From positions 1 through 64,000 of the forward strand of contig JAEUWH010000035.1 in NCBI GenBank assembly GCA_016785955.1: a stretch of DNA of 64,000 nucleotides. The letters are read 5' to 3'. Source of the stretch: Pseudobdellovibrionaceae bacterium (GTDB lineage: Bacteria; Bdellovibrionota; Bdellovibrionia; Bdellovibrionales; Bdellovibrionaceae). The notes below the pieces were generated by a model that was given only the letters and a program-made list of their open reading frames with translations, was not told the origin of the DNA and made no database searches. Positions 46,830 to 61,134 of this stretch are shown one piece after another. The first letter of the stretch is position 1, and the number at the start of each line of letters is the position of its first letter. Position numbers and translations under genes: made by a program.

Positions 46830-47639
46830 ATGTGTATGGGACGTTTTTTTCACTATGCAATCTATCCGTTGTTCATCATTTCGTTTGTTGTCCCGATGTT
46901 GGTGATGTACGACCGCTTGTCGCCGGCAGAACTCCGACACCTTTCTTTAGCTTTGATATCAGGCTGCGTGCTCGCCGCATTTTTACTAGAGTTTTTTTTG
47001 CCTTTTGACCAAAACTTTAGAATGTTCTCTGGACAATTTCTTTGGGATAGCTATTTTACATTCATCCAGTTGCCTTTAGTTTCGATCGCAATCGAATGGA
47101 TCGGCAATGTCCTTAAAACCCAACAAATTCCGACTCTAGGTTTTTTATGGCCTCATCATTTAAATCCCATTGCCCAAATGTTTATGATTCTGGTTATAGC
47201 TGAATTGTTTTACTTTGTTTACCACTTCGTGAGCCACAAATCAGATTTACTCTGGTCCATCCATAAGTACCATCACCAGTACGCAACCGTATATTGGAAC
47301 AATTCAGCCACATTTCATGCCATTGATATTACCTTAAGCGCTTTTTTTTACTTTTTACCACTCCTTATGTTTTCAGTTAGCCCATATGTTCAATATTTGT
47401 TTGTGACGCTCAGTGGAGTCACGGGAATTTTGATTCATGTAAACTTTAGGCACAGCACACGTTTTATAAACAAGATCTTTAACACCTCGGAACTGCATCG
47501 TTGGCATCATCAGCCCGAAGCCATGTCTAAAAATTTTGGCAAAGTTTTATGTATTTGGGATTGGATTTTTAACACCCGCTACGAACGCGATAATAAATAT
47601 ATTTTGAAAGCTAACCATGCCATCAGCCAAGCTAAATAA
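46830..47639 (+). CDS. Fatty acid hydroxylase/sterol desaturase-family di-iron membrane enzyme
   Basis: A 269-residue membrane protein with four to five hydrophobic segments and the histidine boxes of the superfamily: HFVSH (about 131-135), HKYHH (about 144-148), and HVNFRHS and ELHRWHH near 203-227. Such enzymes hydroxylate or desaturate fatty acyl chains, sphingoid bases or sterols at a di-iron centre in the membrane. It is the first gene of a plus-strand series (46830-51589) and overlaps the next gene by 23 bp. In this setting a long-chain-base or acyl hydroxylase is the best guess. ATG 46836 is an alternative start; no clear ribosome-binding site is seen. Confidence 0.82.
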   Translation: MCMGRFFHYAIYPLFIISFVVPMLVMYDRLSPAELRHLSLALISGCVLAAFLLEFFLPFDQNFRMFSGQFLWDSYFTFIQLPLVSIAIEWIGNVLKTQQIPTLGFLWPHHLNPIAQMFMILVIAELFYFVYHFVSHKSDLLWSIHKYHHQYATVYWNNSATFHAIDITLSAFFYFLPLLMFSVSPYVQYLFVTLSGVTGILIHVNFRHSTRFINKIFNTSELHRWHHQPEAMSKNFGKVLCIWDWIFNTRYERDNKYILKANHAISQAK

Positions 47640-49017
47640 TCTTTCAGCGTCGCTTGTATTGTTAAATCTTGTCACGCTTTCTGATCAAGAACTCGCACGA
47701 TTAAAATATACTCTGACAGCGATTCAAACCGATTCACTCTGGACCGAATGGCTTGATCTGGTACAATTGAACGCCTGCGAAAGCTTGATTTATCTGAATC
47801 TCGTGAAATGGAATTTGGAAATTCCAGATTCTATTCAGGCCCAATTGAAATCCGTATTTGATAAGGTTGCAAAGCAAAATGCACTTCGCAACGAGGAAGC
47901 TAAACGTATTTTTTCACAACTCTCTTCGGCACATATTCCGTTCGTTGTACTCAAAGGCCAAGCCTTAACTGAATTCCTATACAATTCGCCCTACTACAAA
48001 AAAATGAATGATGTTGATTTTCTCGTACCAAAATCATCTTTGGATCAGCTTCAAAAGCTATACATTCGATTGAATTTGGAATGTGCGGCCAGTATTGGCG
48101 GACGGAACTATCGCAAACAAGAAAATTTTTCCCATCACTGGCCGCCTTTTTTTACTCGAAATTTGAATTGCGTGCTAGGAACGCACTGGAATCTTGTCAC
48201 CCCCCTATCAAAAATTAAAATCCAGGAACAGAATCTTTGGCAAAACACGGTTCCTCATTCCTATTTGGGCATTCCTTGTTTTCGCTTGAACGATCTTTAT
48301 TTCTTCTTTCACCTCACGGTTCATTTAGCTTATTACAAGACAGGACTTAAAGAGTTATGCGATCCACTGAATTGGTACCGTTTAAAACACGCAAACATTG
48401 ACTACCAAAAATTTTTAGATCTTGTGCAACAATGCCATGCCTATGATCCCGTTTATAGAAATTTATACTTAATGAATTGTGTTTTCCCAGAGGCCACTTT
48501 ACATAAATGGATTCAAGCCCTGGAACCCAACGTCTCGTCATTTGTTGTCCAAGACACTCAATTTCGCTGCCGAGAACCTTACTACGTCGTACGATCACGC
48601 AGTACGCAAACCAGCCGCATCGAGAAAAGCTACGCGCTTTTTTCATTGAGTGACATGTTTTATGAAAAGTTTTACTTTCTTCTTAAAATGTGGACGCATT
48701 TTCTGCTTCCCAAACAACGCGACGTCATCCATATGCAAAGCTTGGACGACTTGCCAGGACGATTCACCCTGCTCCTTGGATACATTAAAACTCCCTATTT
48801 GCTTTCGCGCGTTTTTGCATTCGATTTGGGCTGGAAATTGCATTTTCTATTAATCGCCAAACATCACTATGATCTTTTAAAGTCGATTGCATATTTTATT
48901 CTGGGAGTATTTAGCTCAGGACGAATTGTTTCAATCCCGCAAACACTGCCGCAGAAGATAAAAACTTTAAATTTACCGATCGACTCAATCGAACAAATTA
49001 AGGATAAATTGGAATAA
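47617..49017 (+). CDS. Nucleotidyltransferase-family protein (PF14907-like)
   Basis: A 466-residue protein whose region at about 108-145 has FVVLKGQALTEFL and KKMNDVDFLVP. These match the pol-beta-like nucleotidyltransferase fold, with the two metal-binding acidic residues in NDVDFLV. Members of this family (NTP_transf_5) are uncharacterised and often lie in biosynthetic gene clusters. The C-terminal 250 residues show no known domain but include several aromatic-rich helices. It might activate or modify a head group. That is inference. It ends 2 nt before the next gene. Confidence 0.65.
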   Translation: MPSAKLNNLSASLVLLNLVTLSDQELARLKYTLTAIQTDSLWTEWLDLVQLNACESLIYLNLVKWNLEIPDSIQAQLKSVFDKVAKQNALRNEEAKRIFSQLSSAHIPFVVLKGQALTEFLYNSPYYKKMNDVDFLVPKSSLDQLQKLYIRLNLECAASIGGRNYRKQENFSHHWPPFFTRNLNCVLGTHWNLVTPLSKIKIQEQNLWQNTVPHSYLGIPCFRLNDLYFFFHLTVHLAYYKTGLKELCDPLNWYRLKHANIDYQKFLDLVQQCHAYDPVYRNLYLMNCVFPEATLHKWIQALEPNVSSFVVQDTQFRCREPYYVVRSRSTQTSRIEKSYALFSLSDMFYEKFYFLLKMWTHFLLPKQRDVIHMQSLDDLPGRFTLLLGYIKTPYLLSRVFAFDLGWKLHFLLIAKHHYDLLKSIAYFILGVFSSGRIVSIPQTLPQKIKTLNLPIDSIEQIKDKLE

Positions 49018-49019
49018 GA

Positions 49020-50543
49020 ATGAAAACAACCCAATGGACTCGAGAAGAAAGCAAAGAACGATTTCCAAATTCACTGTCACCCTTGGGATGGAGTGTAATG
49101 CAGTCCGCACTAGAAATAAATCTTGAGTCTATCAAAAAAGAATTTTGCCTAAAAAAATTATCAGCGAATCAAGTCACGCGCTGGGTAGACGGTTATCTGT
49201 ACTCAAGTCATAATTTTTTCAGAAAAATCCCACTGACTCACTTTGCTTGGATACCACTGATTGGATTTGGCTGGAAATTGGTTGTGCATTTTCTTGCGAG
49301 TCTATTTTCTTCCGCACATGGAACATCGTTGAAAATTCGTTTTCTAAATCGCCTTTATGAAAAGGAATTGTCCCACAAAATCCAATTGTTAATTTCTGAA
49401 TGGACATCCCAGCTGCCTAGCCACATACAAAACTTTGAAGACAACAAAGCCGCTAGTCTGACATGGAATGTGTCCGATGTTCATTTTCAAAAGCTCTTAG
49501 ACAAAATCGAACGTGATGGTTGTGCGTACAATCGTTTGGACTTTGCCATTTATTTCTATAAAAATATTTTGAAATCTTTGATCGAAAAAATAAACACAGA
49601 ACAATCCAACCGCATTGCTTTACTGACAGGACAAAGTGCCTTTCAAATTGGAAAGTACATCAGTCAAACTCTAGCCGAAGCACACTCGTTAAGTTCTACG
49701 GCACAGCAAATTGCCTTTACACAATCTCGTCTGGGGCATTTGTCCCTAGGCTGGGATATTGCCCAACTTACATTTGCCGAACAGCCCGCGCTGATGAGCA
49801 AAATGCTGTCGGACCCCGCGAACCGACTGATCTCGACCCCCGCGTATATGGCTATCTCGCCAATGGAAGAACAGTTTATTCAGCTGGTGTCCTGCGACGA
49901 ACAACACCGCTTTTACGCATCCTATCAGTTTCCCTATGTCCGAACGCTATTGAAGCAAATCAACGAGCAGTGGCTAAAAAGAAATATTTTAGAAAAAGAG
50001 GACGATTTTTACTGCCTAACCTTATCGGAAGTCAAACAAACGCATTCACGATTGGTAACGGCAGAGCCGATAGATATCGAGACAATCCAGTATAAGGTTA
50101 AAACACGCTTGTCTTATCTGAAACCCTTCGCTCGAGACGTATTGAACACCGAAGATATGCACGCCCAAGAAGATATCTTTTACTCATCTAAAAATTCGTA
50201 TCAACCACTAGATATCGAAAATGTTCAACAATGGCAGGGAGTCAAGGTCAGCCCGGGCGTTGCTCAAGGACAAGCCTATTGGGTCACGGACTATAAAAAT
50301 TTGGCTGATTGCCCCGATCAACGCATTGTCCTTTGTGAAACCCCCTCACCCAATCTGCACACTGCATTTATAAAAGCCAAAGCCATCGTTGCCGAAACAG
50401 GGGGGATCTTGAGTCACGGCGCCATCGTCGCTCGAGAACTGCAGATCCCCTGCATTTTACAAGTACGAAACTTGAAAAGCATCAAAAACGATGATTGGAT
50501 CGAAGTGGACGCACATTTCGGCATCATTAAGAGACTTTCATGA
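49020..50543 (+). CDS. Phosphohistidine swivelling-domain protein lacking ATP-grasp
   Basis: A 507-residue protein. Residues about 410-507 are a PEP-utilising mobile domain: VSPGVAQGQAYWV, then TGGILSHGAIVARELQIPC with the phosphorylatable His at about 466. The N-terminus starts WTREESKERFPNSLSPLGWSV, resembling the central helical substrate-binding region of rifampin phosphotransferase-like enzymes. The ATP-grasp domain that phosphorylates the His in those enzymes is missing, as is the PEP-binding barrel. It must therefore receive phosphate from another protein or be inactive. It overlaps the next gene, a ThiL-like kinase, by 4 bp. I can name the fold but not the reaction. Confidence 0.75.
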   Translation: MKTTQWTREESKERFPNSLSPLGWSVMQSALEINLESIKKEFCLKKLSANQVTRWVDGYLYSSHNFFRKIPLTHFAWIPLIGFGWKLVVHFLASLFSSAHGTSLKIRFLNRLYEKELSHKIQLLISEWTSQLPSHIQNFEDNKAASLTWNVSDVHFQKLLDKIERDGCAYNRLDFAIYFYKNILKSLIEKINTEQSNRIALLTGQSAFQIGKYISQTLAEAHSLSSTAQQIAFTQSRLGHLSLGWDIAQLTFAEQPALMSKMLSDPANRLISTPAYMAISPMEEQFIQLVSCDEQHRFYASYQFPYVRTLLKQINEQWLKRNILEKEDDFYCLTLSEVKQTHSRLVTAEPIDIETIQYKVKTRLSYLKPFARDVLNTEDMHAQEDIFYSSKNSYQPLDIENVQQWQGVKVSPGVAQGQAYWVTDYKNLADCPDQRIVLCETPSPNLHTAFIKAKAIVAETGGILSHGAIVARELQIPCILQVRNLKSIKNDDWIEVDAHFGIIKRLS

Positions 50544-51589
50544 TACAAACTAAAATTTATGAAATAGAAAAAATCACAAGACTGATCGCAGCCTTCAAGC
50601 GAGCGCCTTACCAACGCAATCGTATTTATGAATCCGATAGCGAAATTCTAGATTTCGGCTTGGAAAAAAATATCGCTATCACAAGTGACATTTTGTGTGA
50701 AGAAATTGAATGGGGCTTAATTTCTGATCCTTACGTCATGGGATGGGTTAATGTCACCGCTAGCCTATCTGATCTGGCGGCCGTCGCCGCCGAACCACTA
50801 GGGGTCTTGGTTGGGCTCAGCCATTCGCAATCCACCAGTCAGGATTTTTTATCTCGATTTTGGCAAGGCACTCGCGAAGCCCTCGACGAACATCAGACAT
50901 TTCTGCTCGGAGGCGACACAAACATATCAAATTCATTTTTAGTTTCCTGTACAGGGATCGGACAGCGGGCAAAATCGACATTGCTGAATCGCAAAGGCAT
51001 AAATGACGGCGACCTAGTTTATCTTTCCGGACCCGTGGGAATGGGAACCGCTGTTGGTTTTGCTAATTTTGTTGTCAAGCCAAAGTCCGCAACCATGGCC
51101 TCGCAAATCGAACCTATGTTTAAACCCAAGGCTCGTTTATCCGAAGCTCACGTGATCGCAAAATTTGCAAGTAGCTGCATTGATACCAGTGATGGCTTAC
51201 TGGCGGCCGTCGATTTTTTATCTCAACTGAATCAAATCCAAATGGAATTGACACTTTCGAAAACACATTTCCATTCCATTTGCTGGCAGCTGGTTGATCA
51301 GTTAAAAATTCCGTGGATTTTGTTTTCAAGTATTCATCTAGGTGAATTCGAACTGCTCTTTACGATTCCACCACAAAATCAAACCGCTTTTGAAATGGAA
51401 ATGCGCCAGAAAAATTTTTCGTTTTTAAAAATTGGACAAATACGTTCGGCCTTTAGTCAGCTACACGTGAATGGGTGTGCAATTGATTTAAATCCTATAC
51501 GTAATTTACTGAATGACTTGAAAGATCCATCTCTTTATCTTGGTTCGCAACAGCGTTGGGCCTCGGGATTGGCGATCCCCCTAATCTAG
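50540..51589 (+). CDS. ThiL/AIR-synthase-like ATP-binding protein, copy 1
   Basis: A 349-residue protein of the PurM/ThiL/SelD/HypE superfamily. ATP and Mg-site segments are AITSDIL, NVTASLSDLAAVAAEP (about 71-86), LLGGDTN (about 124) and CIDTSDGLLAAVDFL (about 210). This is the ThiL pattern, but the gene lies in a lipid-type locus without thiamine genes, and a second divergent copy lies at 56179-57222. A role as kinase of another phosphorylated intermediate is therefore likelier than thiamine-phosphate kinase, though true ThiL is not excluded. It is translationally coupled to the swivelling-domain gene. Its stop codon falls inside a 24-bp dispersed repeat. Confidence 0.75.
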   Translation: MIQTKIYEIEKITRLIAAFKRAPYQRNRIYESDSEILDFGLEKNIAITSDILCEEIEWGLISDPYVMGWVNVTASLSDLAAVAAEPLGVLVGLSHSQSTSQDFLSRFWQGTREALDEHQTFLLGGDTNISNSFLVSCTGIGQRAKSTLLNRKGINDGDLVYLSGPVGMGTAVGFANFVVKPKSATMASQIEPMFKPKARLSEAHVIAKFASSCIDTSDGLLAAVDFLSQLNQIQMELTLSKTHFHSICWQLVDQLKIPWILFSSIHLGEFELLFTIPPQNQTAFEMEMRQKNFSFLKIGQIRSAFSQLHVNGCAIDLNPIRNLLNDLKDPSLYLGSQQRWASGLAIPLI

Positions 51590-53404: not shown

Positions 53405-54682
53405 ATGAAAAAAACATCTACATGGAACGACGACACCTCAGATGCAGTGAACTTACTAACGCTGGCAAGTCAATTTAAAGGTCAGATAGATTCTGATGTC
53501 GATTATTTTGAAAATTACTTTCGTCCACTCTACAACCAAGGAAAATTACTTTATCATCGTGAAATTATTTCGCCGGTCGACCGTCGCGTTTTAGTTAAAG
53601 ATCCTGTAACTGGAAAAATCATCGATATGATTATGATGGGGTCGAACAACTATCTTGGTTTCGCCAATGATCCAGAAGTCAAAGAACGCGCCAAGCAGGC
53701 TATTGATTCGCAAGGACTCGGTATGGGCGGTCCCATGCTATTAAATGGAACGTCTCGGTTACATCGTTCCGTCGAAGAAAGACTTGCACACTTTAAAGGT
53801 AAAGAAGACTGTATCATTCTGCCGTCTGGCTATATGACAAGTCTTACCTGGGTGACAACCTTAGTTTCCGACGAGGCTCTTCTTTTCTTTGATGAAATTT
53901 CTCACGCATCGGTTGTTGATGGCATCAAACTTGGTCGCAAAACCGCATTTCGCTTTAATCACAATGATCCAGATGATCTAGAGAAAATGTTGAAGAAATA
54001 TCGCGAAAAAAATGCCCACCGCGATTTGTGGGTAACCACACAAGGTGTTTACTCGATGAACGGCGAACTGGCTCCGGTAAAAGAAATAGCGCTAGTCTGT
54101 GAAAAATATGATGCCAAATACGTAATTGACGACGCCCATGGTACCGGGGTCATGGGCAAAGGACGAGGCATGGCCGAAGAAGTCGGCATCAGTGGAAAAC
54201 TGAAGTATGCGATGGGAACATTCTCTAAAGCATTTTCAATTACAGGCGGTTTTTTTGCCGCAGATAAAAATACTATTAACTTTTTAAGATTTTTTTCTCG
54301 TCCCTATTTTTTTACAGCATCACTGTCCCCCGTTTCAATGGCTGTTATCTTGGCCTGTTTAGACATACTAGAGAAATCTACTGAACGCGTAGACAAGCTT
54401 CATGATAATATTCTCTTCTTTTATGATTGCTTGGACAAAGCTGAAATAAAATACACCCGCACCGGCAGCGCCATTGTTCCGGTCTTTCCACCGACTCCAG
54501 AAAGTTTTCGCGTTCTTTCCCAAAAGCTGCACGACAATGGACTGTTTGTGAACCCTATCGAGCCTCCCGGAGTTCCCAAAGGTGGCGAACGTTTTCGCGT
54601 GTCGTTGATGGCCACTCACACCAAACAAGATATTCAGGATGCCGTAAACATCTTAAAAACGACCTACGAAAGATACGCATGA
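53405..54682 (+). CDS. Alpha-oxoamine synthase, serine palmitoyltransferase-like
   Basis: A 425-residue PLP enzyme that would condense an amino acid with an acyl thioester to give a 3-keto amino lipid. Motifs: SNNYLGF (about 79), DEISHASVVDG (His stacking on PLP), DDAHGTG (Asp binding PLP) and GTFSKAF with Lys275 as the PLP Schiff base. The N-terminal extension of about 70 residues and the lipid-gene context favour an Spt-type enzyme over BioF or Kbl, and no biotin or threonine genes are nearby. GMGGPMLLNGTSRLH differs from textbook Spt, so another acyl or amino acid substrate (for example cysteate) is possible. It overlaps the next gene by 4 bp. Confidence 0.8.
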   Translation: MKKTSTWNDDTSDAVNLLTLASQFKGQIDSDVDYFENYFRPLYNQGKLLYHREIISPVDRRVLVKDPVTGKIIDMIMMGSNNYLGFANDPEVKERAKQAIDSQGLGMGGPMLLNGTSRLHRSVEERLAHFKGKEDCIILPSGYMTSLTWVTTLVSDEALLFFDEISHASVVDGIKLGRKTAFRFNHNDPDDLEKMLKKYREKNAHRDLWVTTQGVYSMNGELAPVKEIALVCEKYDAKYVIDDAHGTGVMGKGRGMAEEVGISGKLKYAMGTFSKAFSITGGFFAADKNTINFLRFFSRPYFFTASLSPVSMAVILACLDILEKSTERVDKLHDNILFFYDCLDKAEIKYTRTGSAIVPVFPPTPESFRVLSQKLHDNGLFVNPIEPPGVPKGGERFRVSLMATHTKQDIQDAVNILKTTYERYA

Positions 54683-55278
54683 GAAAATGGGTAATCACTG
54701 GTCTTGATGGCTCGGGAAAAGATACTCAAATTGCAAACCTGATAAGCTATGGAGTCCAGAAAAACAAAAAGGTCTTTTCATATTCTATCTGGGACAGTTT
54801 GAAACTATTTGCAAGCCTATCCCAGACCGAACTAAAGAAAGTACTCGAGATATTTCTAACTCAGATGGCACCGCAAGCACGATCGTTATTTCTACAGTCG
54901 ATACTTATGCAAAGCGAGAAAATGGTGGATTTTTCACAATACGACTTAGTCATTTTTAATGCGGGAACGTTTAAATACGCAGCTTCGGAACACACCCTGG
55001 GCACACCACTTTCACTTTGGTTTGCCGTAGAGACTCATTTCAAATATGCCGATAGAGTCATTTATCTCAAATGTTCCAAAGAAACGCTAAAACAAAGAAA
55101 AACTGAACTCTCTTCTTACGAGAATCTTTTCTGGGATAAATTGGATGCCTATAAAGACAATCTAGAGCATTACTTATCACAAATTGAAAATGTCACCACC
55201 ATTGACAGCGACATGAATGCCGAAAAAGTATTTGAGCAAATCCGTGTCAAAACCCTGCTCTTTCAAAATGAAATTTAG
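54679..55278 (+). CDS. Thymidylate-kinase-like P-loop protein
   Basis: A 199-residue P-loop kinase fold with Walker A GLDGSGKDTQ (residues 8-17). It resembles dTMP kinases, but the conserved DR(Y/F) dTMP-binding motif is replaced by FNAGTFKYA, and the LID region is diverged (SKETLKQRKTELSSYE). It overlaps the oxoamine synthase (ATGA) and the lipid-kinase-like gene, so it is firmly part of this operon. It probably phosphorylates something other than dTMP. The substrate is not known. Confidence 0.7.
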   Translation: MRKWVITGLDGSGKDTQIANLISYGVQKNKKVFSYSIWDSLKLFASLSQTELKKVLEIFLTQMAPQARSLFLQSILMQSEKMVDFSQYDLVIFNAGTFKYAASEHTLGTPLSLWFAVETHFKYADRVIYLKCSKETLKQRKTELSSYENLFWDKLDAYKDNLEHYLSQIENVTTIDSDMNAEKVFEQIRVKTLLFQNEI

Positions 55279-56182
55279 TCTGTTTATTAATAGTCATTCG
55301 TATGGAAAAAATTCGGCTTCAAAGTGGAAGAAGATCGAATCAGAACTGCCTTTTCTGACACCCGTATTTCTTGCACCAGCAGAAATAAATTCAGTTTTAA
55401 GAAAGTATACTCTGAACAACGACCTTATTTATATTGGCGGCGGTGACGGTACAATTCATCATCTGATTAATTCTGTTTTCCAAAATGATCAAGATTTTCA
55501 GCGAATTCAAGTCGGTATTTTAGGGTTAGGCAGTTCGTGCAGTTTTTTGAAGTCAGTTCCATCTGTACAAAAAATTCACGGCATCCCCACCTTGGCAACA
55601 TCCGAGCAAGAAATCAAAATTGATCTTGGGCGAGTCAAATTCAAAAATCAAGATGGCCTATGGGAATCTAAATATTTTGTCGCCAATGGCTCACTTGGCT
55701 TTTTAGCATTAGGCAATCAACTTTTTAACCAACCGGGCGGACTAAACCAGCTGTTTAAGAGTTTTTCGACGGAAGCCGCCAATAATTTTATTTTTCTAAA
55801 GAGTCTTTTCCAGTATCATCCAACAAAAATTTCTGTGAACGGCGCATCCGCAAAAGACTATTTAAACATTCAATTCCTTAAGTCAAAATATTATACTGGA
55901 GAGTTTTACTTTGAACGTCAAAACTTGCTACACAGCGGACAAATAGATTTTCATTTATTCGACTATGTTGGACGCTGGCACACTTTGAATGTATTTTATC
56001 ACCTGATGACAAAAAACGAATATCCCAGGCCAACGCACCAAGAGTATCGAGATCAAGCCATGTCCATCAAGGCGAGCACGATAATCCCTCTGGAATTGGA
56101 TGGCGAAATATACTTTGGCAGTGAATTTTTGATCGAATGTGTTCCTCAAAAACTCAGAATCATGTCAGGAGAGTTGTTGTGA
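55268..56182 (+). CDS. Diacylglycerol/ceramide kinase-like protein
   Basis: A 304-residue protein with the DAGK catalytic-domain hallmark IGGGDGTIHHLIN (Gly57-Thr62) and the C-terminal beta-rich half of the family (LELDGEIYFGSEFLIE). Such enzymes phosphorylate diacylglycerol, ceramide or long-chain bases. The Caulobacter ceramide kinase CpgB belongs to this family, so a sphingolipid-kinase role is attractive. ATG at 55268 overlaps the preceding gene by 11 bp; ATG 55217 is an alternative that would lengthen the overlap. No good ribosome-binding site is seen, suggesting coupled translation. Confidence 0.75.
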   Translation: MKFSLFINSHSYGKNSASKWKKIESELPFLTPVFLAPAEINSVLRKYTLNNDLIYIGGGDGTIHHLINSVFQNDQDFQRIQVGILGLGSSCSFLKSVPSVQKIHGIPTLATSEQEIKIDLGRVKFKNQDGLWESKYFVANGSLGFLALGNQLFNQPGGLNQLFKSFSTEAANNFIFLKSLFQYHPTKISVNGASAKDYLNIQFLKSKYYTGEFYFERQNLLHSGQIDFHLFDYVGRWHTLNVFYHLMTKNEYPRPTHQEYRDQAMSIKASTIIPLELDGEIYFGSEFLIECVPQKLRIMSGELL

Positions 56183-57222
56183 ACTTGCCATCACTAAATG
56201 AATTTGCGGATTTACAATCCCATATAAAAAATTTTTCACGTAGCCCCAAACAAACACATAACTTTTTTCACAGTGATGCTGAAGTTTTGCAGTTAGCAAA
56301 CGATAGCTTTCTAGCGATAAGCCTAGACATCGTAGGTGACGAACAAGCCTGGGGGTTAATTCAAGACCCAAAGAACTTGGGACGACATGCGCTGGAAACC
56401 GCACTCAGTGATTTGGCCGCCGTGGGGGTTTCGCCTGCTGGCTTTCTACAAGGATTGGTTATTGGTCAAAATCACGATTCAAAATTTATTGAGGGTATTT
56501 TAAATGGGCTTAACAATACCGCCCAAAAGCACCGGCTGTTTTTATACGGCGGAGATACCGCTTCGGGGCAAGTCTTCAGCTTACACTTAAACGTCGTAGG
56601 ACACTCTCGCACCAAACCGCTTTCACGCTTGGGCATGGGAACTACAGACAAAATTTACACGACTCAGAAGCCCGGCAAAGGGAATGCGTTGGTCGCACAC
56701 AGAGTAATGGATAAAAATCACAAACTTGATGAAACCCCGTATCTTGCACAGGCCCGTATTCCTGAATCTCAAATTATTAAAAATTATGCAACCTGCATGA
56801 TTGATTCCAGTGATGGGTTTTTAAATTCGTTAGATCTACTAGTACGAGTGAACAATATCGGTATCTCATGCACGTCTTCTCTGGATGCTATGTTGAACCC
56901 ATTGGCTCTAGCAGCGGCCCAAGCCTACAACATTTCCCCATGGGCATTGCTGGCGGGAGAGTTTGGTGACTATGAACTGATATTCTCCGTACCGGAATCC
57001 AAAAGTGCAGAGTTTGAAAAAAAATACGAAGAAAAATTTTCTAATTTGGTTGAGATCGGTATCGCGATTGAACCCCCTGAGTTGCAACTGACTAATTCCC
57101 ACAATAAAGTTATTTCCTATGACGCTTCAATCGCTCGAAATTTATATCGAGAACTTTCCGAAACAAAGCCCGAACACTATCTTACTCGTTTCTTAGAGCT
57201 GGGAAAAAATCTGGGATTTTAA
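56179..57222 (+). CDS. ThiL/AIR-synthase-like ATP-binding protein, copy 2
   Basis: A 347-residue PurM/ThiL-superfamily protein starting at GTG 56179, which has AGGAGA upstream and overlaps the lipid-kinase-like stop by 4 bp. Motifs: HSDAEVL, ETALSDLAAVGVSPAG, LYGGDTASG and CMIDSSDGFLNSL. It is only moderately similar to the copy at 50540-51589 (for example AISLDIV versus AITSDIL), so the pair is not a recent duplication. Each copy ends one plus-strand half of the locus. Both probably act on phosphorylated intermediates, or assemble together. Confidence 0.75.
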   Translation: MNLPSLNEFADLQSHIKNFSRSPKQTHNFFHSDAEVLQLANDSFLAISLDIVGDEQAWGLIQDPKNLGRHALETALSDLAAVGVSPAGFLQGLVIGQNHDSKFIEGILNGLNNTAQKHRLFLYGGDTASGQVFSLHLNVVGHSRTKPLSRLGMGTTDKIYTTQKPGKGNALVAHRVMDKNHKLDETPYLAQARIPESQIIKNYATCMIDSSDGFLNSLDLLVRVNNIGISCTSSLDAMLNPLALAAAQAYNISPWALLAGEFGDYELIFSVPESKSAEFEKKYEEKFSNLVEIGIAIEPPELQLTNSHNKVISYDASIARNLYRELSETKPEHYLTRFLELGKNLGF

Positions 57223-58012: not shown

Positions 58013-59323
58013 ATGTCCCTTAATTCAGTGCCTCCAGGTCCTTCAAGCTTACCTTTGATCGGTGTGATTCCTCAACTCATTCGTGATCCCTTAGGCACGT
58101 TCGTATCTATGCATAAGAATTTTGGTGGCTTTGTACGTTTCCAGAAAGGACGCTCGTTTCGTTATATTTGTTTTGATCCAGAGGGAATTCATCACATCTT
58201 GGTAAATAATAGTAAAAACTTCACGAAAAGCCGACGTTACGAAAAGTTGAAAACATTTCTAGGGGCTGGACTCGTCACAACCGAGGGAACCCAATGGCAA
58301 AGCCTGCGTAAAACTGCGCAACCCGGGTTTGCACCACCTGCCATGAAAGACTATTTTCATACAATTAAGTCTGTAACAGCCGCCACCATTGGTCGTATTC
58401 AGGAAACGGGCAGCATGGATTTACAGGCACAAATGATTGAGCTGACTTTGTCCATCATCAGTCAAACTATGTTTCACTTAGATTTGGCTTCACAAACCGA
58501 AGTTTTATCTCCCGCCTTTGAGTACTGTGTTTCTTTTATGAATCATCGCATGGAAGCCTTTATTGACTGGAACGAATACTACACAACGTCCGAAGGAAAA
58601 AAATTTAATTCATACAAACAGACTATTGACCGTTTAATGTTGGATATAATTTCCGAGCGGAAAAAAAACCTGGGTCAACACCGGGACTATTTAGAATCTC
58701 TGTTATATGAACAAAATAAAAATCCTCAAGAAATCACTGATCATGTCATCAAAGATCAATTGATTACATTTGTAATGGCTGGCCACGAAACTTCGGCAAA
58801 TATGCTGAGTTGGACTATACTCTTACTGCTTAAACATCCCGAAATTTTGAAATCAGCAACAGAACTGTGCCGCACGATTAACCCTTCCGAATTCGGCGAC
58901 CTGACCCAGCTGGCGCCTTTGGAAAATATTTTGAAAGAATCACTGCGCTTGTTTCCCCCGGTATGGATGATTTCACGAGACGCCATTAACCAAGACACCA
59001 TTCTTGGTTTTTCAATCGAGGCAGGCAGCACCATCAATATATGCCCCTACGTCACCCACAGAAGTCCTCGGTATTGGGAGCAGCCGCTAGAGTTTATTCC
59101 GTCACGTTTCGAAAGAAACTATAATAAAAAAGCGTTCATCCCGTTTTCGTCGGGACCTCGTGCCTGCATTGGAAGTCAGTTGGCTTTACTGGAAGGAAAA
59201 TGGATCTTGTATCAGATCTTGAAAAATTTTGATTTAGCTTGTGATCGCTTAGACTTGGAACCACACATCAGTGTGGTTCTCAAGCCAAAGTCTTCTCACA
59301 AAATTCAATGCACTAAAGCATAA
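58013..59323 (+). CDS. Cytochrome P450
   Basis: A 436-residue soluble-type P450. Diagnostic motifs: PPGPSSLPLIG proline-rich start, oxygen-activation helix AGHETSANML (about 257), ExxR in ESLRLFP (about 308) and heme-binding FIPFSSGPRACIG with the proximal Cys (about 380-392). The pattern resembles CYP102/CYP4-like fatty-acid hydroxylases more than macrolide P450s. It probably hydroxylates a fatty acyl or long-chain-base intermediate in this locus. Electron-transfer partners are not encoded nearby. Its last 11 bases overlap the convergent exported-protein gene. Confidence 0.9.
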   Translation: MSLNSVPPGPSSLPLIGVIPQLIRDPLGTFVSMHKNFGGFVRFQKGRSFRYICFDPEGIHHILVNNSKNFTKSRRYEKLKTFLGAGLVTTEGTQWQSLRKTAQPGFAPPAMKDYFHTIKSVTAATIGRIQETGSMDLQAQMIELTLSIISQTMFHLDLASQTEVLSPAFEYCVSFMNHRMEAFIDWNEYYTTSEGKKFNSYKQTIDRLMLDIISERKKNLGQHRDYLESLLYEQNKNPQEITDHVIKDQLITFVMAGHETSANMLSWTILLLLKHPEILKSATELCRTINPSEFGDLTQLAPLENILKESLRLFPPVWMISRDAINQDTILGFSIEAGSTINICPYVTHRSPRYWEQPLEFIPSRFERNYNKKAFIPFSSGPRACIGSQLALLEGKWILYQILKNFDLACDRLDLEPHISVVLKPKSSHKIQCTKA

Positions 59324-61064
59324 TACTATTCAAAGTCGCACCGATCATGAGCCCACCCCAGCTTTGATTGGTCACGCGAAGAATTGTTTTGATATCGCCA
59401 TCACTACTGACAGGACGTCCCTCGGTCGACATTCTAAAATAAGGCACGTAATTTTTTTCCACCCAAGAGATTGGATTGCCCTTGAAGTAGTTACGATAAC
59501 GAACGCGATTACCTTTGGCATCCATTACATCAGACTCTTGCTCGACATTGCCCTTCTCAAAATCATCTGGTAAAAAATCACGAAGATTTTTAGGCGAGTC
59601 AAAATAAAACTTTACCGTGTTGACCTGGACCACGTCACTGCTGATCGCCGATCGAATGGCCACAAAGTGGTCGTCCAATTTCGGTAAACTGTCAAGTTTA
59701 CCTCTCTTAATTGCCGTGATTTGAGCATCGGTTAACTTGCCTTTTAAAACACTCGTCATTCGATTCAAACTGTTTTGTACCACAGTCGTAAAAGGGCGGA
59801 ATATCGCGCCATCTAGAGCCAAAGAATTTTCATTAGGCCGCTGTTTGATTTCATTCCATGCTAAATTAGCCGCTTCGTTAGACGCTAATGACGCCCCATA
59901 AGCCAACCTCATATTTCTTTGCCCATTACTTAAAAGCGTAAACAATCCCTCGTTTTTTGATTTAGACAGAAATTTCTTGATCTTATCAGTGCGCTCTTCC
60001 GCCGATGCACCTTTAAAAACAACATCACGTTGCTCTACAGGTTTAAAGGCCTCTTTGGGATTGAAAACATCCATTTCCTCGACGCCATATAAAAATCCCA
60101 ACTCTCGAACCAGTGCCAACAAACCATTTGCATTATAACTGTTGAATGTATGAATCGCCGCAATGTTGCCATAGAAATTAGAAAGAATCGCATTTCGTTC
60201 CGCTTCCCCTAACGCCCGAAAACGGTCAGAATTGTCTTCATAGGAATTGGTGCCTGCAATAACTTTATTATCCCAGACAGCTGTTTTATTTTTCAAATCG
60301 ATTTTATTCAATTTATTAACGGCTAGTTCCAAACGCGGTAACGCATCAACCGCTAACCAGTTTTGAATATCACGCTCTGTAGAAAACTGAGAGATTCCAT
60401 AATACTCAGCATCCTTAGGATTGCTGTACTTAATTTCCACAATCTCTTTAGCCGCTTTATTATCAAAGGTTTTTGTCGCCGTGTACTTGAATGGTTCCGA
60501 AATATACCGAAAAACAACTTTCATATTCTCGGAATCATTATCCACCAGAAAAACATTTATATTGCTGGCCATTTGCTTGGCCATTGTTATCAAGTAGCTT
60601 TGTACGATTGGGTACTTTCTCGCTAACGGGCGTACACGATGAAAAAAGCCGCGATATGATCTAAGAGGAATCAATTGCGCGGCAAATAACTCGAGATCTT
60701 CACTGCGAGAACCAGGTTGCTCAAGCTCAAAAAGAATTAAATCTAATGCGTCCGCCGCCGCTGACGATCCCGGTGTATCTTTTAAGGCTAGAAATCGATC
60801 CCGATACGTCCTGAAGTCCGATTGCAAATTTGCGTCAGAAAGAACCGCCGCGATCTTACGCTCGCCACGTTTCTTCGCCTGCTTCATTTCTTCGGCAAAT
60901 TGTCCGGATGTATAGTGTGGTATTTCTGGCAGACTGGGTTCCGCTTCGATCGCTGGCACATATGGAACCCCATCGAACGTTTTATTGCTGATTTTCTTTG
61001 TGGACGCGGCCACGACACTTAACATCCCCAAAATTGCTAGGATGAAAACTTGCAACTGTCTCAT
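59313..61064 (-). CDS. Exported protein of unknown function (583 aa)
   Basis: ATG at 61064 follows GAGG and opens a signal peptide (about 1-21, cleavage after VVAA). The mature protein is mainly helical, rich in Asn, Lys and Ala, with an N-terminal proline-rich stretch (VPYVPAIEAEPSLPEIP). No lipobox, catalytic motif or membrane segment is obvious. It is transcribed divergently from the MMPL transporter with 70 bp between, so it may be its periplasmic partner. I recognise no family. Confidence 0.65.
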   Translation of the reverse strand: MRQLQVFILAILGMLSVVAASTKKISNKTFDGVPYVPAIEAEPSLPEIPHYTSGQFAEEMKQAKKRGERKIAAVLSDANLQSDFRTYRDRFLALKDTPGSSAAADALDLILFELEQPGSRSEDLELFAAQLIPLRSYRGFFHRVRPLARKYPIVQSYLITMAKQMASNINVFLVDNDSENMKVVFRYISEPFKYTATKTFDNKAAKEIVEIKYSNPKDAEYYGISQFSTERDIQNWLAVDALPRLELAVNKLNKIDLKNKTAVWDNKVIAGTNSYEDNSDRFRALGEAERNAILSNFYGNIAAIHTFNSYNANGLLALVRELGFLYGVEEMDVFNPKEAFKPVEQRDVVFKGASAEERTDKIKKFLSKSKNEGLFTLLSNGQRNMRLAYGASLASNEAANLAWNEIKQRPNENSLALDGAIFRPFTTVVQNSLNRMTSVLKGKLTDAQITAIKRGKLDSLPKLDDHFVAIRSAISSDVVQVNTVKFYFDSPKNLRDFLPDDFEKGNVEQESDVMDAKGNRVRYRNYFKGNPISWVEKNYVPYFRMSTEGRPVSSDGDIKTILRVTNQSWGGLMIGATLNSIML

Positions 61065-61134
61065 TTCACACCTCGTATTTTTTAATTTAATAATACCCAC
61101 AGAAAGTTTCTATAATTATCATTATAATTGCAAT

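Follow-up and report, generated by a model that had tools for sequence, protein, structure and literature searches.

A rifampin-phosphotransferase-like swivel protein without an ATP-grasp domain in an aminolipid-like gene cluster of Bdellovibrio relatives, and a complete paralogue as its possible phosphate donor

The question raised by this locus is where a phosphohistidine swivel domain obtains its phosphate when its own chain has no ATP-grasp domain. The window, i.e., the whole stretch of 64,000 nucleotides from the genome of a Pseudobdellovibrionaceae bacterium (G000) that was analysed, encodes a 507-residue protein for which the preliminary description proposed a swivel domain with His466, similarity to rifampin phosphotransferase (RPH) and the lack of both ATP-grasp and PEP-binding domains. 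The Pfam search, the reading frame and the AlphaFold model all agree with this part of the description. The coordinates of the protein, its domains and the neighbouring genes are presented in Table 1.

Table 1. Location of the 507-aa gene, its parts and the associated genes (window positions unless a contig is given).
Feature	Position	Strand	Basis or remark
NTP_transf_5 nucleotidyltransferase-like protein, conserved upstream gene	47617..49017	+	In most relatives, adjacent or close to type A
'Type A lone' 507-aa protein: RPH-like substrate-binding and phosphohistidine swivel domains, without ATP-grasp	49020..50543	+	Pfam PF00391 only; AlphaFold model
Helical body, residues 1-401; equivalent of the rifampin-binding domain, not ATP-grasp	49020..50222	+	Secondary structure, structure alignment, hhalign
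Swivel (PEP-utilizers mobile) domain, residues 402-507	50223..50540	+	Pfam, structure matches
Codon of the predicted phosphorylated His466	50415..50417	+	Invariant in full-length sequences
ThiL-like AIR-synthase-family kinase	50540..51589	+	Operon neighbour, 4-bp overlap (ATGA) with the 507-aa gene; not supported as donor
Serine palmitoyltransferase (SPT)/BioF-like alpha-oxoamine synthase, same cluster	53405..54682	+	Under the curated SPT cut-offs
DAGK/YegS-like lipid kinase, same cluster	55217..56182	+	Profile matches, cluster conservation
Complete RPH/PigC/RedH-like paralogue, 836 aa	C10:68128-70638	-	Just outside the window

The Pfam analysis of the 507-aa protein showed the PEP-utilizers domain at residues 432-499 (2e-17), while neither a PPDK_N/ATP-grasp nor a PEP-binding domain was found. 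Besides the swivel domain, the comparison with Pfam and NCBIfam revealed weak similarity to RPH and PEP synthase from about residue 300 onward. His466 is located within TGGILSHGAIVARE (motif SHGAIVARE), and its equivalents are essential in RPH (His825; PMC4844700) and in HpeH (His581; PMC12167813). The frame of the gene comprises only 511 codons from stop to stop, and the upstream NTP_transf_5 gene ends two bases before its start, which leaves no room for a cryptic N-terminal domain. A frameshifted or truncated gene is ruled out by the same frame and neighbouring gene as well as by the equal start in three congeners (G001, G004 and G005).

The AlphaFold model (11 sequences, pLDDT 82, pTM 0.81) consists of a mostly helical body and a C-terminal swivel domain. 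The structure aligner placed residues 1-507 on residues 325-867 of RPH from Listeria monocytogenes (PDB 5fbt/5hv1; Z 24.0, rmsd 4.1, 416 residues), and in the alignments with 5hv2 and 5hv3 residues 1-382 lie on RPH 325-751. Both proteins share this fold, the order of body and swivel and the C-terminal catalytic histidine, while the identity is only 16-17% and the ATP-grasp domain, which forms residues 1-314 of RPH (PMC4844700), is missing from the 507-aa protein. As the model covers RPH 325-867, the protein corresponds to an RPH-like enzyme minus its ATP-grasp, cut at the domain border. A cryptic ATP-grasp in residues 1-400, which the preliminary description had envisaged as an objection to be checked by structure prediction, is ruled out by the predicted fold, since this region forms the helical RPH-like body. 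The swivel domain matched the C-terminal domain of pyruvate kinase (Z 18.4) and the swivel domains of EI and PPDK. By sequence alone, Arg666 and Glu667 of RPH have no safe counterparts in the 507-aa protein, and they carry no weight in the argument below. We assign to the protein, with very high confidence, an architecture of RPH-like substrate-binding and swivel domains from which the ATP-grasp is missing. It carries the two features of the RPH-type dikinase superfamily, i.e., a swivel domain with the catalytic-His motif and an RPH-like substrate-binding domain. It is not a single-chain RPH with the ATP-grasp in the same chain, as there is no PPDK_N domain, no room upstream and a helical body, and it falls outside the RPH equivalog, with 51.3 bits against NCBIfam RIF_Ptrans_rph, far under the cut-off of 999.

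The lone architecture was also found in the three congeners, at about 50% identity and in the same gene order, and in two genomes of another family (G065 and G072). The dN/dS of the lone gene is about 0.09, a value obtained from the single pair without saturated synonymous sites, and that of the complete paralogue is 0.07. The lone 507-aa gene is a maintained gene and not a fragment. In the equivalent cluster of G012, which represents a related genus, an 846-aa homologue (L043:8069-10609) can be aligned over the full length of the 507-aa protein (25% identity), but it carries PPDK_N in its own chain, fused ahead of the entire query-like region; the lone form is therefore this enzyme minus the ATP-grasp. 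Fused forms of about 730-840 aa are also present in G127, G357, G188 and G348. In the tree including the complete paralogues, the lone forms group at 86/88 and the fused forms at 83/85 (moderate support), while the complete paralogues form a clade apart from type A with full support. On this tree, the lone form probably, though not certainly, arose only once.

One explanation of the lone state is that the swivel domain now plays a structural or regulatory role and is no longer phosphorylated. The loss of the ATP-grasp would agree with it, and swivel-like domains without known phosphorylation do exist, e.g., the C-terminal domain of pyruvate kinase that was matched here, for which we know of no phosphotransfer role. 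However, His466 and the core of its motif are invariant in 11 out of 11 full-length sequences, lone or fused, and homologues without the histidine, which the preliminary description had regarded as a possible counterargument, do not occur among them. Moreover, the lone gene and the complete paralogue are under equally strong purifying selection, and we consider the loss of phosphorylation quite improbable.

The preliminary description stated that in known enzymes the donor domain always belongs to the same chain as the histidine, and a separate donor was consequently presented there as a new phosphotransfer arrangement. The first statement is wrong and the arrangement is not new in principle, as the dikinases HpeH/HpeI, CreHI and PpsAB are split (PMC12167813). 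HpeHI of Rhodococcus rhodochrous GD02 is a two-component homologue of RPH, in which HpeH contains the substrate-binding and swivel domains and HpeI is the ATP-grasp protein; CreHI and PpsAB are alike and split at the same place (PMC12167813). Dikinases of this class use ATP to phosphorylate a small molecule by way of a phosphohistidine, with release of AMP and Pi. HpeH, CreH and PpsA (phenylphosphate synthase) resemble the 507-aa protein in having the substrate-binding and swivel domains on one chain without an ATP-grasp, in the catalytic histidine within a conserved motif and in their homology to the C-terminal two thirds of RPH. By the description of two-component dikinases given in PMC12167813, which have a dedicated ATP-grasp subunit and serve aromatic catabolism, the subunit composed only of substrate-binding and swivel domains is present here, and the free-standing ATP-grasp partner was not found. 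Unlike HpeH, which is paired with the free-standing HpeI and acts in phenol catabolism, the 507-aa protein is linked with an ATP-grasp that belongs to a complete paralogue, and its gene lies in an aminolipid-like biosynthetic cluster. Split dikinases as such are already known; what is new is that no dedicated ATP-grasp partner was found and that the lone form is linked to a complete paralogue. Provided that the enzyme is active, it is highly probable that the donor sits on another chain, as the protein itself lacks a donor domain, retains the histidine and is RPH-like. This part of the earlier reading stands, but the choice of the ThiL-like protein as the donor does not.

The search with Pfam PPDK_N revealed two genes in the window genome, both full length, encoding the 836-aa complete paralogue and a 908-aa PPDK, and the same pair, one gene of each, is present in each of the three congeners. 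Every PPDK_N match in these four genomes sits in a frame of at least 824 aa. A free-standing ATP-grasp gene (HpeI/PpsB-like), i.e., the lone PPDK N-terminal gene that the preliminary description suggested looking for, was found in none of them by this search, which a diverged ATP-grasp or a gene in assembly gaps could escape. His466 could instead be charged by another protein with an ATP-grasp or PEP domain. Candidates are the 908-aa PPDK (C10:104.7-106.2 kb), PTS enzyme I and a lone ATP-grasp protein that escaped recognition; suitable donor domains do occur in the PPDK and in an EI-like protein (C42) of this genome. However, neither of these two genes is linked to the cluster and no lone PPDK_N gene was found in the four congeneric genomes, which makes a donor of this kind improbable.

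The complete paralogue was found in all six lone genomes. In the window genus, it lies about 18 kb from the lone gene on the opposite strand. In G065, the order of genes is NTP_transf_5, the lone 507-aa gene, the complete 810-aa paralogue, ThiL-like, SPT-like, TMK-like and DAGK-like, with 4-bp ATGA overlaps both between the lone gene and the paralogue and between the paralogue and the ThiL-like gene. In G072, the contig ends within the paralogue, whose beginning comes directly after the lone gene and whose remainder is located on another contig. The paralogue scored 245-253 bits against PigC and RedH and 243 bits against RPH, all far under the cut-offs. The model of the paralogue aligns with RPH from end to end, with a high rmsd that may reflect domain movement or poor placement, and the residues corresponding to Lys22, Arg117 and Thr136 of RPH are retained in it as Lys, Arg and Thr. 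The paralogue and the 507-aa protein share a homologous body (hhalign probability 100, 478 columns) and the swivel domain, while the paralogue differs in possessing the ATP-grasp with its key residues and in its separate clade.

The lack of a detectable lone ATP-grasp gene, the linkage in the lone genomes, the adjacency in G065 and G072, the retained ATP-grasp residues and the homologous bodies, together with the precedent for charging in trans given by HpeHI, PpsAB and CreHI, point to the complete paralogue as the donor. We consider it somewhat more probable than its opposite that the 507-aa protein is an HpeH-type acceptor subunit whose His466 is charged in trans by the ATP-grasp of the paralogue. 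The confidence is only moderate because the lone forms constitute one clade, and their common linkage to the paralogue may have been inherited from a single ancestral event, in which case it does not count as repeated evidence. Moreover, the presence of the paralogue is not specific to the lone state, as it was found in four of the five fused genomes, the exception being G012. In the mechanism proposed here, the 507-aa protein would be the acceptor and transfer subunit of an RPH-type small-molecule dikinase with the HpeH layout. An ATP-grasp on a separate chain, most likely that of the 836-aa paralogue from the same cluster, would (pyro)phosphorylate His466 at the expense of ATP, the charged swivel domain would move to the substrate pocket in the helical body of the same protein, and the phosphate would be handed to a small molecule, presumably of an aminolipid-like pathway. 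The 507-aa and 836-aa proteins form a directly testable pair.

The ThiL-like protein was named in the preliminary description as a possible donor on account of the overlap between the two genes. The 4-bp overlap was indeed seen, it is present in all four congeneric genomes, and the protein is an ATP enzyme by family, all of which would suit direct phosphorylation of His466. However, in G065 the lone gene overlaps the complete paralogue, and the ThiL-like gene comes only after that; given this order, the overlap in the window is expected if the paralogue was lost from between the two genes and kept elsewhere in the cluster. ThiL-like genes also adjoin fused homologues with their own ATP-grasp in G357 and G188, and the ThiL-like protein as an exclusive stand-in for the lost ATP-grasp was rejected on this ground. 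No ThiL-like gene was seen at three of the five fused loci, two of these stretches being short. The best solved relatives in the PDB are thiamine-monophosphate kinases (8e-21), and the score against TIGR01379 (thiL) is 160.9 bits, under the curated cut-off of 184.15. Thiamine-monophosphate kinases phosphorylate a small molecule and are not known to act on a protein histidine, and to our knowledge no enzyme of the AIR-synthase family phosphorylates a protein histidine. Direct charging of His466 by the ThiL-like protein is hardly credible; this protein more probably phosphorylates an intermediate of the pathway. Two further homologues of this protein in the genome score above 110 bits and none reaches the thiL cut-off. 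A second ThiL-like gene is present in the window cluster at 56137-57222 (+), and a third homologue is located at C82:14077-14868.

The 507-aa protein could also work without any ATP-grasp partner, taking phosphate from a phosphorylated small molecule onto His466 and passing it to a second substrate. One such donor might be a lipid phosphate produced by a kinase of the cluster (DAGK-like, TMK-like or ThiL-like), and the cluster does encode several small-molecule or lipid kinases. When HpeI and ATP are both absent, HpeH alone can still phosphorylate acetovanillone with the phosphate of 4-phosphoacetophenone (PMC12167813). However, this activity is slow and represents a partial reaction of a normally ATP-using enzyme, and the fused homologues in G012, G357 and G188 show that the ATP-grasp is the standard donor of the family. 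Therefore, we regard a small-molecule donor as unlikely.

Charging in trans by the paralogue can be extended, tentatively, to a reading in which the complete dikinase is a shared charging hub that serves its own swivel histidine and one or two paralogues lacking the ATP-grasp. Its clients would be the 507-aa protein and, in the congeners, a second lone protein of 533 aa. If this possible but rather doubtful extension is true, a single ATP-binding domain would serve two or three phosphotransfer steps within one lipid-type pathway.

The second lone swivel protein is encoded in the congeners' clusters (L046:14302-15903, L047:16792-18393 and L050:626-2227), has its histidine in GHSSILARE and contains no ATP-grasp; the dN/dS of the closest pair is 0.08. 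It was not found in the window genome.

The cluster also holds genes encoding a TMK-like kinase, a P450, a fatty-acid hydroxylase and an MMPL transporter. Just past the window end, a gene for an 858-aa fusion of a class-III aminotransferase and an acyl-ACP-reductase-like domain (PigE/TamH-like; C10:65562-68138 (-), L040:1562-4138) overlaps the complete RPH/PigC-like gene, which is a further difference between the paralogue and the 507-aa protein. The fusion protein matches PigE at 295 bits, below the cut-off, and its layout is TamH-like. TamH combines, in one fusion protein, a fatty-amine-making transaminase with a thioester reductase that is a relative of the acyl-ACP reductases (PMC9594044). 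The presence of this PigE/TamH-like fusion suggests fatty-amine synthesis, and together with the SPT-like synthase, lipid kinase, P450, fatty-acid hydroxylase and MMPL transporter it points to an aminolipid or a fatty amine as the product of the cluster. Literature searches on Bdellovibrio sphingolipids and on PEP-utilizer clusters provided nothing usable on this product. The linkage of a lone acceptor with a complete paralogue, within an aminolipid-like cluster that is conserved among Bdellovibrio relatives, suggests that ATP-grasp domains can be shared among enzymes and that lipid or natural-product biosynthesis makes use of dikinase chemistry.

The cluster of the congeners additionally contains phosphatidylserine-decarboxylase-like and DUF3419 genes (L046:8552-10319), of which no homologue was seen in the window version. 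A 595-aa protein encoded at 59313-61100 (-) of the window has no Pfam or NCBIfam match; it is conserved beside the MMPL transporter or the type A gene in G012, G065, G072 and G348, and more distantly in the congeners.
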